Shown in pieces: positions 31,674 to 38,802 of a DNA stretch of 38,946 nucleotides; the stretch's first letter is position 1; each line of letters opens with the position of its first letter. Below the pieces are notes generated by a model that saw nothing but the letters and a program-made list of their open reading frames with translations, was not told the origin of the DNA and made no database searches. Location: positions 1 through 38,946 of the forward strand of contig JAIETZ010000010.1 in NCBI GenBank assembly GCA_019744775.1, in the 5' to 3' direction. A program made the translations under genes and the position numbers. The stretch is from Candidatus Obscuribacterales bacterium (lineage in GTDB: Bacteria; Cyanobacteriota; Vampirovibrionia; Obscuribacterales; Obscuribacteraceae).

Positions 31674-33848
31674 TTATAAGCCACCAACAGTCAGATAAAT
31701 CTCGACTTCGAACTTTTCGCGTCCTTTCAAATCAACATGCCAGTTAGGAACAATTGCTGATCCCTGGTAGATTCGCTCAAAGCCGGATTCCGAGTTAGAT
31801 ACGCTGAATACTGGATAGCGCCACATTCCGGCTTTTTGCGACCACTTGAGTAATACCTTTATACCCAGCCATTCGTCGGCAATGCCTATTCCGTCGCAGT
31901 TAGCTTTATCATCTTTGCTGGCGAGCAGTGCCGGCTCGCATTTTTCGCCTGTTAGCTCAAAGAAATATCTGTCGCTTGCGTCCGGGGCCAGGAAGTTGAA
32001 GTTCATTTCCGGTGCAAACCAAAGACTTATCGGCTCATCGCTGGTGTTGGTTAACAGATAGGAGACTTTCATTTGCGCAGTGTCGTAATCAAACGAATAA
32101 GTCTTGCCAACATTGAGTGTTCTGTGTTTGTGATCAAACCAGACATGACCGTCACGCTCAAGTTTTACTTGAGCCTTGTTGCCGGATGCTTCAGTAGATA
32201 CAACCTTGTACGGCTTGTGCACAAAGTCACCCTGCTCAGGGTAGTGGCATACAGCCAGATCTTTTAGCTTCGCATGCGAACCAAGGAAGTGATCCAAGAA
32301 TGACAAACGACGATACCAGTCGTAAGCAAGATGGTCACTGAGATTTGCTTCTTTGGTGACTACTTGCCCATGAATTGTCTTTGCTGCTTCGTGATCAGTT
32401 TCAGTCTTTTGCTGCGCCTGTTTCAACTTCTCGTGATATGGCTCTTTGCGGCGAGAAAGAGTGTCTGTCAAGTTGAATGGACGTGGCTTGTAATCAAGCT
32501 CAAGAAGAGCACCGCCATAATGAGGGGCTAGACATGTGTTTATCTTGTCGCCACGAATAACAACCTCGTCGAAACCGTCTAAATCAATATCAATTGTCTC
32601 GACAGATATTCCCTTGGGAGAAAGTCCAGCTTTTTGTTCAAGCGCGTCGAGCGCCACATCTGCTGCAACAGCAGCTTGGAAATTGGCTGTACGTAAATTG
32701 GTCAGGTAAAGACCACCGAAGACTCCGTGCCAGAATGGATCATTTGATTGCGCTTGCCAAATCTTGTCTTGCGCATCGAGAAGCTGTGACTCATCAACCT
32801 TGCCGCTTGCACGAAGTTTTTGCAAACGCTTGCTGGCATGCAGCATCTTCTTGTGGAGTTGATTACCTTCAGGATATTTGACGAGGAAGTTGCGCCAGAA
32901 TCCACCTTTTAAAAATGGCTTGTAGAGCTCATCGACTTTATGAAGTCCGTCTTCCAACACTGCTGCGCGATCAGCCGGCAACGCCCATTCCATCATTTCA
33001 GCGTAGCTAGCTGTCGGCAAGTAGACTCTGCCTGATGGACCAATCGTGCGATTGTATTCACCGAATGTCTGAATGTGTATCCAGTCGGAATTCTTCTCCA
33101 GGATAGTGAAGAATTTCTCCAGCCAGCCGTCTTTGTAGACTGATTCATAGGTGTGAGGCCAAACACCGAACTTCTCGCCATCGTCGAAATAAAAGGCACC
33201 GGCATCACCATCGCTTGTGGCGATTGACTTCAAATACTCGATAATCTTATCCGGCATTTCAAACGGAATCATGTAACGAAGGTTTTGATTGATCGGGAAG
33301 ATATCCAACTTATTGCCATCTTCTTCAGTGACATAGCAACGATAAAGTTCTGAATCGTGCAGACCGACAGATCTAAAATGCGAGTCATCCACGCAGACGT
33401 ATTTGATGCCGGCTTCAACTAATGGCTTAGGTAAATGCGGTTCCCAAACACGCTCTGCCAACCACATGCCATCGATGATTTCCTTGTTGGCTTGTTTTGC
33501 GCAGAAAAGCTTTTCCAAGTAGGAAGTCAACTTGCGAATTTGCCCGACTTTATCGCAGTCAGGAATAATCGCCATAATCGGCTCGTAGAATCCACCAGTG
33601 ACAAGTTCAATCTGTCCACAAGCATGCAGCTTATCCATCACGTGAATTACTTCAGGATAGTTTTTCGCAATCCAATGCAGTAAATATCCCGTGAAGTGGA
33701 CAGAGAATTTGACCTTTGGAAAACGCTCCAACACTTGAAAGAACGGCAAGTAGCATTTCTCGCAAGCCTCAGCCAGCACATGATCAAAATTGCCGACTGG
33801 CTGGTGGTTGTGGACGCCGAGGCAAAGATTTATCGTCTTCTTCGTCAT
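31674..33848 (-). CDS. GH57 alpha-glucan enzyme (4-alpha-glucanotransferase / alpha-amylase type)
   Basis: 724 aa. Family GH57 retaining enzyme acting on alpha-1,4-glucans. Motif 1 is HNHQP (13-17). The nucleophile lies in WLAERVWEP, E132, equivalent to Glu123 of the Thermococcus litoralis 4-alpha-glucanotransferase. The acid/base lies in FYFDDGEKFGVWP (Asp222/223). FDDGEKFG and the C-terminal beta-sandwich region (about 330-720, DUF1925/DUF1926-like, with YEKLKQAQQK-type linker and a final FEVEIYLTVGG) match the glucanotransferase/AmyA subgroup rather than branching enzymes. No signal peptide, so it works on intracellular glycogen or maltodextrin. It starts 4 bp after purB, with AGGA in the purB tail, so translation may be coupled. 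Confidence 0.92.
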   Translation of the reverse strand: MTKKTINLCLGVHNHQPVGNFDHVLAEACEKCYLPFFQVLERFPKVKFSVHFTGYLLHWIAKNYPEVIHVMDKLHACGQIELVTGGFYEPIMAIIPDCDKVGQIRKLTSYLEKLFCAKQANKEIIDGMWLAERVWEPHLPKPLVEAGIKYVCVDDSHFRSVGLHDSELYRCYVTEEDGNKLDIFPINQNLRYMIPFEMPDKIIEYLKSIATSDGDAGAFYFDDGEKFGVWPHTYESVYKDGWLEKFFTILEKNSDWIHIQTFGEYNRTIGPSGRVYLPTASYAEMMEWALPADRAAVLEDGLHKVDELYKPFLKGGFWRNFLVKYPEGNQLHKKMLHASKRLQKLRASGKVDESQLLDAQDKIWQAQSNDPFWHGVFGGLYLTNLRTANFQAAVAADVALDALEQKAGLSPKGISVETIDIDLDGFDEVVIRGDKINTCLAPHYGGALLELDYKPRPFNLTDTLSRRKEPYHEKLKQAQQKTETDHEAAKTIHGQVVTKEANLSDHLAYDWYRRLSFLDHFLGSHAKLKDLAVCHYPEQGDFVHKPYKVVSTEASGNKAQVKLERDGHVWFDHKHRTLNVGKTYSFDYDTAQMKVSYLLTNTSDEPISLWFAPEMNFNFLAPDASDRYFFELTGEKCEPALLASKDDKANCDGIGIADEWLGIKVLLKWSQKAGMWRYPVFSVSNSESGFERIYQGSAIVPNWHVDLKGREKFEVEIYLTVGGL

Positions 33849-35255: not shown

Positions 35256-36239
35256 CTATTGTCCCTGCAATTGCTCTAAAAGTTGGTTCAGGTTGTTGGT
35301 GCTATCGGAGCCCGATGAATCGTGTTGTGATCCGGCAGAGCCTCCGCCGAGTTCGCCCATTAGTTTGTTCAATTGACTCATATCGATGTTGCCCATTTGA
35401 CCAGTCAATGATCCCAAGTCCAAATTGCCAAGTGAGCCCGTGTCCCCGCCGCCACCGAGGGCGCCAAGTCCACCCATTCCGCCAAGCAATTGCTGCAGCT
35501 GATCGGTGCAATCATCACAAGGACCACCTGCGGAGGGACCAATGGGCAGATTGCCGAGCATACTATCAACCTGTCCATGCATACGCTGAGTAGTTGCGCG
35601 GTCTTCACCACCAAATGGATCTAAATTCGGATCAAGCTTGTAAGCAGTAATCACACGTCTGACGCCATTGTGATATTGGCTGAGAGAAGCGCTCAATCGT
35701 CCCAACATTGGATATATCCGACCAAAACCTTCCATTCCCGATCCACGTAAGTCTCCTGGGTTTTCAGCCAATTGCTCAAAGTAATAGAACGAAGCTGCTA
35801 GGTCATTATGCTCTCTTTTCATTTCTGCCGGCGGCACGATTGCGCGTATCTCGCGAATCATCTGAATCATGTTTGTTTTTACTTCTGTGGTGCTTCCTTG
35901 TGCATTGCTAGAAAAAGCTACCATTGCTAGTCGAGGGTAGGTTTGAATGATATGACGCATGCGGGCAAGATAGCGGGCAACAGCATCAGGAGTACGCGGC
36001 ACGTCCATCGATATACCGCCCGTCAGTGGTTGACCCAATTTGTAAACCTGACCTCTTCGCGCGCCGGGAATGGGGGTGGTGTCGAGGATAGGCGTCGCTC
36101 GTTGCAGCTGGAGCGGCTTTTTCGCAACGGGCTTTTTGTTGCCGGCAGCCTCCGCCGCAATTGTAAAAATCGCCAGCAAGGCAAGCCCAGCGGCAATTTT
36201 GGGCAGTGTCTTATTAATATGAGCAATGCTAGTTAACAT
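35256..36239 (-). CDS. Unknown secreted protein with Gly/Leu/Gln-rich tail
   Basis: About 327 aa. The N-terminus (IAAGLALLAIFTIAAEAAG) is a signal peptide. The centre (about 75-210) looks helical and folded (ARYLARMRHIIQTYPRLAMVAF, IQMIREIRAIVPPAEMKREHNDLAASFYYFEQLAE; each split by other residues). CDDC near residues 243-246 could form a disulfide. The last 80 residues are a low-complexity series of Gly-Gly, Leu-Gln and Gly-Asn repeats, ending LNQLLEQLQGQ. No family recognised. ATG at 36239 is preferred because AAGGGG lies eight bases upstream; ATG at 36245 is only three bases from it. Confidence 0.65.
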   Translation of the reverse strand: MLTSIAHINKTLPKIAAGLALLAIFTIAAEAAGNKKPVAKKPLQLQRATPILDTTPIPGARRGQVYKLGQPLTGGISMDVPRTPDAVARYLARMRHIIQTYPRLAMVAFSSNAQGSTTEVKTNMIQMIREIRAIVPPAEMKREHNDLAASFYYFEQLAENPGDLRGSGMEGFGRIYPMLGRLSASLSQYHNGVRRVITAYKLDPNLDPFGGEDRATTQRMHGQVDSMLGNLPIGPSAGGPCDDCTDQLQQLLGGMGGLGALGGGGDTGSLGNLDLGSLTGQMGNIDMSQLNKLMGELGGGSAGSQHDSSGSDSTNNLNQLLEQLQGQ

Positions 36240-36257
36240 AGCCATATCCCCTTAATT

Positions 36258-36346: not shown

Positions 36347-36370
36347 GGGCGCATGCAATGCGCCCCTACA
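36347..36370 (+). repeat. 24-nt hairpin repeat, copy 6
   Basis: Identical to copy 1. A partial duplicate of its left arm (GGGCGCAT) lies just upstream at 36336-36343. It lies in the divergent spacer between the secreted protein and the UspA gene. Its ATG at 36353 is in frame with the UspA gene and lengthens the open frame by 24 codons. Confidence 0.9.
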
Positions 36371-36424: not shown

Positions 36425-37321
36425 ATGAAGCTTCTTTTGCCCGTCGATATAGTTCATTCCGCTAAGCCGACAATTGACGAGCTTAAACGCCTGGTTGATT
36501 TGAAAAACTGCCAGGTAACAATGCTTTACGTCAAAGAAGAATTGCCGTCCTATGAAAGCATGATTGAAGGACTGGCTGATATCAAAGAGAAATATCAAAC
36601 CGAAGTAAAAAACAAGGCACAAGCATATTTCGCACAAGCCGAGACAGAGCTAAAGCCCCATTGTGAGTCACTAAAGACGGAGATAGTCAGCGGTCCGGCA
36701 GCTATGATGATTGAAACTGTTGCACGCGATGAAAAATGCGAATTGACAGCATTGACTCCTGGCGTTCATCCCAAGATTGAAGAGTTTTTCCTGGGAAGCG
36801 TGTCGAGCAAAGTTGTGAAGCATGGACCGGGAACAGTTTTAATTTGCCGCAACGGCGGAAAGCCACCGGAGAAAATCAGCAAAGTCGTCATTGGTGTTGA
36901 TGGATCACATCAATCGCAAACGGCATTGAAAGAAGCAGTAAAGTTATTCAAGCTGAAAGAGCATGGAGCAGAAATTACACTTATCCATGTGGTATCAGTT
37001 GCAGATGTTTTAAAAATGGTGTCACCGGTTGAATATATCGGCATCGTTGAGAATAACATGCTCATGGAAGGTGAGACTTTCCTTGCCAACGCCAAACAGA
37101 TGTTGGCGGAACAAGGCATCGATAAAGTCTATTGCGTCTTGAAAGAAGGCGATCCGGCAACGGAAATCTTGAACTTGACCAAGTCACTTCCGGCGGATTT
37201 AGTAGTCATCGGCGCGCAAGGTCGCAATGCCGTGCAGCATTTCTTGCTGGGAAGCGTTTCACACAGAATTGCCATGCACTCACCTGTCACAACTGCGGTG
37301 GTTAAGTCTCCACGTAAATGA
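36425..37321 (+). CDS. Tandem universal stress protein (two UspA domains)
   Basis: 298 aa. Domain 1 (1-143) begins MKLLLPVDIV and ends FFLGSVSSKVVKHGPGTVLICR. Domain 2 (152-296) begins KVVIGVDGSHQSQTALKEA and ends VVIGAQGRNAVQHFLLGSVSHRI. Domain 2 keeps the ATP-binding pattern G263-x2-G266-x9-G276-S. Domain 1 has G113-V-H-P116, which loses the second glycine and shortens the spacing, so only domain 2 is expected to bind ATP in the usual way. UspA proteins respond to starvation and oxidative stress by mechanisms still poorly known. The ATG at 36425 is preferred over the one in the repeat because the extra N-terminus is not family-like. Overlaps the next gene by 4 bp (ATGA). Confidence 0.88.
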   Translation: MKLLLPVDIVHSAKPTIDELKRLVDLKNCQVTMLYVKEELPSYESMIEGLADIKEKYQTEVKNKAQAYFAQAETELKPHCESLKTEIVSGPAAMMIETVARDEKCELTALTPGVHPKIEEFFLGSVSSKVVKHGPGTVLICRNGGKPPEKISKVVIGVDGSHQSQTALKEAVKLFKLKEHGAEITLIHVVSVADVLKMVSPVEYIGIVENNMLMEGETFLANAKQMLAEQGIDKVYCVLKEGDPATEILNLTKSLPADLVVIGAQGRNAVQHFLLGSVSHRIAMHSPVTTAVVKSPRK

Positions 37322-38409
37322 GAATTGCTGTTTCACTGCTTTTGATGGTGTCTCTTTCCAGCTTGGCTTTGTCTGCGCGCGCCAAGCAGGTTCCGCTAAA
37401 GCAATTGCGACAGGAAATAAAAACAGAGCAAGAGGAAGAAAAAGACAGCCTCAAGAAAATGCGTGATGAGTTGAATGACTTGAAGTCGACCATCATGGAA
37501 GGCAGCCAGGCAATGGGACAGTTGCAATCAGCTGTAGCACAACAAGCCAAGACTCGCGTGTATAGGCTAGCAGTCAAAGACGGTCGTGTTGAAATCATGC
37601 CGGGCGTGTTTGCCTCCGCATTAACATACAACGGATTGACGCCGGGTCCGGTTCTCGAGGCAACCGAAGGTGACACGATACAACTCACCGTGTCCAACGA
37701 GTCCAGGCAGCCAACGAGTTTTTACATCGACGGTCTTATCTTGCCGCACGCCGTAGCGGGATTGCCGCGTGAAGGGCATGGGGTAATAAAGCCGGGCGCG
37801 GCGGAGACGTATCAATTCAAAGTCGAGCAGTCGGGGCTTTTTACTTACCATCCGCAAGTTAATCACCTGGCGCAAAAGACGCAGGGCCTTTTCGGCATGC
37901 TCGTCGTCGACGCCGATGCGCCGAAGACCTTCAGCAAAGAGCAAGTCATGGTCATTGGGCAGTGGACTGTCGCAGGGGCTCCGGCTGGTTCGCCCGGGAA
38001 GGTAGCGCCGTCACCGGGTAAGGCAGGTGCTGCTGCCGTGGCTTCGGCATCAGGTCCGACGACCTACTTCACCGTCAACGGGAAAAGCGCTCCAGCTATT
38101 CCACCAATCGCCGTAGTTCGTGGTGACCGCGTGCGCTTGTACGTCGCCAACACGACATCGCAATCGGTTCCGTTGCAATTGACGGGGCATCGCTTTGAAG
38201 TAATAAGCGTCAGCGGCAGCGATGCGATGGAGCCGCATGTCTTTAGAGACACCTATTGCGTACAGCCGGGAGACAGAGTTGTGCTGGAGTTTCTCGCCGA
38301 CAATCCAGGTGTCTGGTCACTTGCTTCGCAGTTGCCGCATCAGGTGACAAATCGCGGCAAGTTTCCTGGCGGAATTGCCATTCCGGTAATTTATCCGAAT
38401 GCGGAATAA
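37318..38409 (+). CDS. Exported multicopper-oxidase-fold protein without copper ligands
   Basis: 363 aa. Signal peptide (about 1-22), then a coiled-coil segment (27-75, Glu/Lys/Gln-rich). Two cupredoxin-like domains follow (about 80-200 and 248-360), joined by a Gly/Pro/Ala linker (218-247). Blocks match MCOs and nitrite reductases: YNGLTPGPVLEATEGD (104-119), GLFTYHPQ (173-180), GKSAPAIPPIAVVRGDRVRL, LTGHRFEVISV, and VVLEFLADNPGVW. The usual ligands are lost: HWHG is SFYIDG, YHCA/YHSH is YHPQ, PFHLHGH is PLQLTGH, and HCH...H is SLASQLPHQ. It is therefore unlikely to hold a type 1 or trinuclear copper site and is probably structural or binds something else. The start overlaps the UspA stop (ATGA), so translational coupling is likely. 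Confidence 0.85.
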   Translation: MRIAVSLLLMVSLSSLALSARAKQVPLKQLRQEIKTEQEEEKDSLKKMRDELNDLKSTIMEGSQAMGQLQSAVAQQAKTRVYRLAVKDGRVEIMPGVFASALTYNGLTPGPVLEATEGDTIQLTVSNESRQPTSFYIDGLILPHAVAGLPREGHGVIKPGAAETYQFKVEQSGLFTYHPQVNHLAQKTQGLFGMLVVDADAPKTFSKEQVMVIGQWTVAGAPAGSPGKVAPSPGKAGAAAVASASGPTTYFTVNGKSAPAIPPIAVVRGDRVRLYVANTTSQSVPLQLTGHRFEVISVSGSDAMEPHVFRDTYCVQPGDRVVLEFLADNPGVWSLASQLPHQVTNRGKFPGGIAIPVIYPNAE

Positions 38410-38417
38410 CGGGTTCC

Positions 38418-38491
38418 GTCATTCTGAGCAGAGCGAAGAATCCCACCTGTTAAAGACGTGAGATTCTTCGGGCTGATGCCCTCAGAATGAC
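38418..38491. repeat. Compact palindrome of the GTCATTCTGAG family, in a convergent spacer
   Basis: GTCATTCTGAG (38418-38428) pairs with CTCAGAATGAC (38481-38491), and GCGAAGAATC (38433-38442) with GATTCTTCG (38462-38470). It makes a long imperfect stem between genes ending at 38409 and 38497. It carries both family end motifs and could act as a two-way transcription stop. Confidence 0.75.
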
Positions 38492-38496
38492 AATCC

Positions 38497-38802
38497 TTAG
38501 GCGTGATCACCCAATGCTTGCAGATGTTGCTCTAGTTTCTCCTGAGACAACCCAGTGTGATCGCAAAAGGCTTTCCAACCTACAGCCACAACTTCTTCCC
38601 AATTCTCGTAATAAGTCGGCATGTGCATGTCTCCACGACCAATCTCAGAAGAGTAGTCGGAAAGAATAGCTTTCGCCATGTCGTGCTGGACCATGTGCCG
38701 CACGTCGAACCATTGTTGCTCGACGGCAAGCTCTAAAAGCGTAGCTAGGAATTGCTGCTGGTGGTAGCGGGATTCGGCGATTTCCTGTAATCGGCTGTCC
38801 AT
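38497..38802 (-). CDS. Small unknown protein
   Basis: 101 aa, not recognised. Almost all helical by composition (LQEIAESRYHQQQFLATLLELAVEQ then WFDVRHMVQHDMAKAI). Soluble and slightly acidic, with several His, Gln and Trp. No signal peptide. Good ribosome-binding site (GAGGT five bases before the ATG) supports it as a real gene. A 12-bp palindrome lies just upstream. No neighbours in the same direction. Confidence 0.6.
   Translation of the reverse strand: MDSRLQEIAESRYHQQQFLATLLELAVEQQWFDVRHMVQHDMAKAILSDYSSEIGRGDMHMPTYYENWEEVVAVGWKAFCDHTGLSQEKLEQHLQALGDHA

Follow-up and report, generated by a model that had tools for sequence, protein, structure and literature searches.

Oxidase folds that have given up their copper are already known. 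FtsP/SufI of E. coli has 2 of its 12 ligands left and does not bind metal, and its proposed role is that of a scaffold stabilising the septal ring (PMC2661564); the protein described here resembles it in its multicopper-oxidase fold, its predicted periplasmic location and its lack of expected redox activity. The same two-domain fold is found in the two-domain multicopper oxidases or small laccases (types B and C; 3g5w, 2zwn) and in the copper nitrite reductases NirK/AniA, and two-domain oxidases are trimers (PMC13151041). Tandem universal stress proteins of the UspE-like kind, for their part, combine two Usp domains with an ATP motif in domain 2. The locus considered here joins relatives of these two groups. 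It lies at the end of a 38,946-nucleotide stretch of a Candidatus Obscuribacterales contig (JAIETZ010000010.1; the window, hereafter), whose last two forward genes encode a tandem Usp protein and an exported cupredoxin protein and overlap in ATGA. The features discussed below are as follows.

36425..37321, +, tandem universal stress protein (UspA family), 298 aa (Pfam Usp, aligned orthologues, motif count)
37318..38409, +, exported two-domain multicopper-oxidase-fold protein, predicted to be copper-less, 363 aa (Pfam, AlphaFold2/PDB matches, ligand table)
37318..37383, +, Sec-type signal peptide region, residues ~1-22 (sequence inspection; cleavage site inferred)
37396..37539, +, N-terminal coiled coil, residues 27-74 (AlphaFold2 helix, heptad pattern, profile search)
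37552..37971, +, cupredoxin domain 1, residues 79-218 (AlphaFold2 model, ligand alignment)
38059..38406, +, cupredoxin domain 2, residues 248-363 (AlphaFold2 model, ligand alignment)
38497..38802, -, conserved 101-aa protein of unknown family, convergent to the pair (synteny)

The gene pair and its surroundings

The upstream gene belongs to the universal stress proteins: Pfam Usp matches it at 1.8e-44 over two stretches, which correspond to two Usp domains. The ATP-type motif G-x2-G-x9-G(S/T) is present in the second domain only (GAQGRNAVQHFLLGS) and recurs in 21 of 29 Usp orthologues. A longer reading frame beginning at 36353 is unsupported, the homologues beginning at 36425.

The pairing extends far beyond the window. 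Judged by coordinates, 48 of the 51 genomes that carry the cupredoxin gene have a Usp orthologue immediately before it on the same strand; in two of the other three the contig ends within a truncated Usp, so that Usp adjoins the cupredoxin gene in 50/51. The sole genome with the cupredoxin gene but no adjacent Usp is G007 (loci L015 and L050), where purB stands directly divergent in its place. The gap between the two genes, with start codons chosen mechanically, has a median of 4 nt (n=36); the genes overlap in 11/36 cases and lie within 30 nt of each other in 34/36. Chance adjacency is ruled out by the 50/51 count, even though Usp domains are matched 10 times in the genome. The initial annotation had proposed a tandem UspA gene overlapping a gene for an exported two-domain cupredoxin protein by ATGA, and both open reading frames and their Pfam domains bear this out; the pair is likewise conserved in relatives, the lack of which had been named as grounds for abandoning the idea. 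The link to a stress protein that it drew holds as a conserved association, one that is genomic in kind and from which G007 departs.

The pair sits within a longer block, comprising malQ, purB, usp, mco (the cupredoxin gene), the 101-aa protein and a matrixin-like protease, that is kept across much of the order, and part of the linkage between Usp and cupredoxin genes therefore reflects general conservation of gene order. The 101-aa gene is syntenic in 41/47 loci across the order, and its product has no Pfam match. Downstream of the pair, 38/47 loci (for example, L049:8487-10067) encode the exported matrixin-like metalloprotease (Peptidase_M10); at the window locus it is past the contig end or absent.

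Several further features of this neighbourhood were observed. Where other genomes have malQ (GH77) beside purB, the window carries a GH57-type alpha-glucanotransferase/amylase gene (31674-33848, -), an apparent non-orthologous replacement of malQ at the same locus in this genus. Encoded divergently from Usp is a 329-aa glycine-rich protein (35256-36245, -) that belongs to no recognised family, probably carries a signal peptide and occurs in part of the order only. The cupredoxin gene is followed by a hairpin at 38418-38492 (-39 kcal/mol, z -5.6; arms CATTCTGAG...GAAGAATC), present in one copy in the window and perhaps serving as a terminator or belonging to a dispersed repeat.

The exported protein: fold, coiled coil and copper ligands

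Two Cu-oxidase-type cupredoxin domains, the number expected at the least of a multicopper oxidase, are recovered in the exported protein both by Pfam (Cu-oxidase_3, 5.2e-25; Cu-oxidase_2, 1.9e-14) and by structural comparison. None of the NCBIfam oxidase models comes near its cut-off on the window protein; the same models match the whole family. The AlphaFold2 model (mean pLDDT 83.5) consists of a helix at residues 27-74 and two cupredoxin domains, with the two-domain blue copper oxidases 3g5w and 2zwn as best PDB matches (Z ~31, rmsd 2.1-2.3 over ~260 residues) and the nitrite reductases NirK/AniA next (Z ~25-27). The signal region has neither a twin arginine nor a lipobox, and most orthologues have similar N-termini.

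The N-terminal helix, modelled with moderate pLDDT (~45-80 in blocks of ten), has the hallmarks of a coiled coil, with hydrophobic residues at heptad positions a and d. Residues 32-73 align without gaps in 38 sequences, in all of which positions 34, 45, 48, 52, 55 and 69 are strictly hydrophobic; Gln38, Glu41 and Met48 are invariant, the polar Gln38 and Glu41 sitting in core positions. The added coiled coil noted from the sequence at the outset is thus upheld by both the model and the conserved heptads. That such a helix might be common to other proteins was considered and rejected: its profile matched essentially this family, with two weak extras in 26 genomes.

The ligand positions were set by alignment with ligand-bearing outgroup oxidases and examined in a family sample of 38 sequences. 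There are 11 of them in window-protein numbering, namely 136, 138, 178 and 180 in domain 1 and 284, 287, 289, 336, 337, 338 and 342 in domain 2. In the window protein 10 of the 11 are replaced: YID stands for HxH and YHPQ for YHxH in domain 1, and VPLQLT for HPxHLH and ASQLPHQ for HCHxxxH in domain 2. The initial annotation had quoted the motifs SFYIDG, YHPQ, PLQLTGH and SLASQLPHQ, all of which are present, and had taken every recognisable ligand to be lost; this needs one correction, as His178, within YHPQ, is kept as the sole ligand. At the type-1 site, which calls for His, Cys and His, the protein has Val284, Ser337 and Gln342, and of the eight histidines of the trinuclear site it keeps one (at most four in the family). 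Across the family 0-4 of the 11 ligands survive (mean 2.5), the type-1 site is gone in 38/38 members and most type-3 ligands have gone too. By comparison, the 27 outgroup oxidases counted keep 9-11 ligands, except for one with 7, and 11/11 are intact in the genome's own oxidase, which is encoded on contig 11.

The replacements are themselves regular. The type-1 Cys has become Ser337 in 37/38 and the type-1 His Gln342 in 38/38; position 180 is Gln in 36/38, position 284 is Val, Ile or Cys, and position 289 is Ser or Thr with a single Gly. Had homologues held copper ligands at shifted positions, the case for loss would have failed; the relatives yielded no new conserved His/Cys/Met cluster. At the level of sequence, the evidence that the copper sites are gone is good. 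In 12/38 members His136 and His287, both type-2 positions, are kept together with His138 and His178, and these four-His members could hold one metal ion because both type-2 positions are retained. His136 never occurs without His287 in the family (Fisher 7e-7, uncorrected for kinship), and the tree contains only two independent supported contrasts for this co-retention; we do not claim the correlated loss as evidence for a metal site.

Distribution and constraint

The cupredoxin protein is present in 51 of 53 Obscuribacterales genomes and in all 22 of good quality, the two genomes without it being 64-66% complete. At a threshold of 1e-60 no copy was detected in 291 further genomes of the phylum, and none was seen in the other sampled families of the class; relatives in named genome records are Candidatus Obscuribacterales or Melainabacteria, and a plasmid collection contained only distant oxidases of <60% identity. 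The protein is, in other words, a core gene product of the Obscuribacterales, which are non-photosynthetic relatives of cyanobacteria.

The family forms a single clade with support of 100/100. Within one clade, those domain-2 losses that every member has are most simply placed on the stem, whereas losses at 136, 138 and 287 differ between members; the window's genus, where residue 138 is Asp or Tyr, ranks with the most ligand-poor. A recent duplication of the genome's own oxidase was rejected as the source, that oxidase grouping in a quick tree with the ligand-bearing oxidases outside the clade. Within the genus, dN/dS by the Nei-Gojobori method is 0.052 for a pair 96% identical and 0.142 for a pair 77% identical, and the remaining pairs for which a finite value was obtained lie at 0.04-0.16, with synonymous sites close to saturated in several comparisons. 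Purifying selection on the protein is strong, and it is therefore functional. Ligand loss by itself would fit a decaying oxidase pseudogene, an explanation that the low dN/dS (0.05-0.14), the open frames in relatives and the order-wide conservation refute practically outright.

Interpretation and comparison with known systems

We lean towards reading the second gene of the pair as encoding an exported pseudo-oxidase, a non-enzymatic envelope protein that forms a trimer with a coiled-coil stalk, serves in scaffolding or binding and is coupled to Usp. A two-domain multicopper-oxidase fold would have lost its redox copper sites by the time of the Obscuribacterales ancestor, and the copper-free protein would then have been retained in the envelope without enzymatic function. 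A homotrimer is suggested by the two-domain relatives, which are trimers, and the coiled coil would add a stalk or docking site to it. Because its copper-binding residues are lost, the protein is probably a structural or binding protein rather than an enzyme, and it may act as a periplasmic scaffold or binding protein much as FtsP/SufI is thought to; the assembly or binding role in the envelope raised in the initial annotation fits the results. From the paired Usp, translational coupling would tie production of the pseudo-oxidase to expression under growth arrest or stress, with Usp itself working on the cytoplasmic side, where it would probably bind ATP, and making no direct contact with its partner.

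Other readings of the same data merit weighing. The two genes might be neighbours through the conserved chromosomal block alone, sharing a transcript and no function. The order of malQ, purB, usp, mco and the 101-aa gene, conserved across Obscuribacterales, speaks for this, as does the fact that G007 lacks an adjacent Usp yet keeps the rest of the block; the co-directional pair, with its median gap of 4 nt and 11/36 overlaps, differs from its immediate outer neighbours, which are in opposite orientation at variable spacing, and we regard this explanation as somewhat unlikely. It is less probable still that the emptied copper pocket has been converted to bind a small molecule or a different metal, making the protein a periplasmic binding or chaperone protein and not a scaffold. 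The replacing residues are conserved and polar (Gln180, Ser337, Gln342, Ser/Thr289) and His291 is invariant, as would suit a maintained pocket, but residues that merely fill and stabilise the core would be expected to look no different; the family lacks a conserved His/Cys/Met cluster, and no gene for a transporter was seen next to the cupredoxin gene.

A residual mononuclear type-2-like copper site at the subunit interface, leaving a weak redox or metal-binding protein, would account for the 12/38 members that keep His136, His287, His138 and His178 and for the constant company of His136 with His287. The window protein has Tyr136, Asp138 and Gln287 at these positions, however, the co-retention may be a matter of ancestry given its two independent supported contrasts, and the type-1 entry for electrons is gone in all members, which makes such a site improbable. 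The non-enzymatic envelope protein coupled to Usp is the reading that we carry into the comparison with described systems.

Among the papers listed by searches of open-access text there was nothing relevant on Usp and multicopper oxidases in Melainabacteria, no report of a tandem Usp paired with an exported oxidase-fold protein, and no two-domain, coiled-coil, Sec-type, Usp-coupled pseudo-oxidase encoded by a core gene. Domain matches taken at face value would wrongly credit these uncultured bacteria with a copper redox chemistry that the sequence cannot support, and the role of the protein is likely basic to Obscuribacterales cells, as it is the product of a core gene in a poorly known order. 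Two-domain multicopper oxidases carry copper at type-1 and trinuclear sites, whereas in the window protein the ligands are replaced and a coiled coil is added; unlike NirK/AniA, it is without the type-1 or type-2 ligand set. FtsP/SufI is like it in having lost its copper ligands, with 2/12 kept against 1/11 here. FtsP, however, is a protein of three cupredoxin domains with a Tat signal, whereas the window protein is modelled by AlphaFold2 with two domains, bears a Sec-type signal and a coiled coil, is paired with a Usp gene, and scores 25.3 bits against a cut-off of 581 on the NCBIfam FtsP model. Membership in the FtsP/SufI family is accordingly rejected on domain count and model score, and the protein works like FtsP at most. 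It looks like a putative further case besides FtsP, probably an independent one, of an oxidase fold turned into a non-enzymatic envelope protein; that the order-wide two-domain coiled-coil pseudo-oxidases constitute a new class of envelope scaffold, under coupled stress-protein control and with an origin independent of FtsP, is a broader proposal that we advance tentatively, its chances falling slightly short of even.
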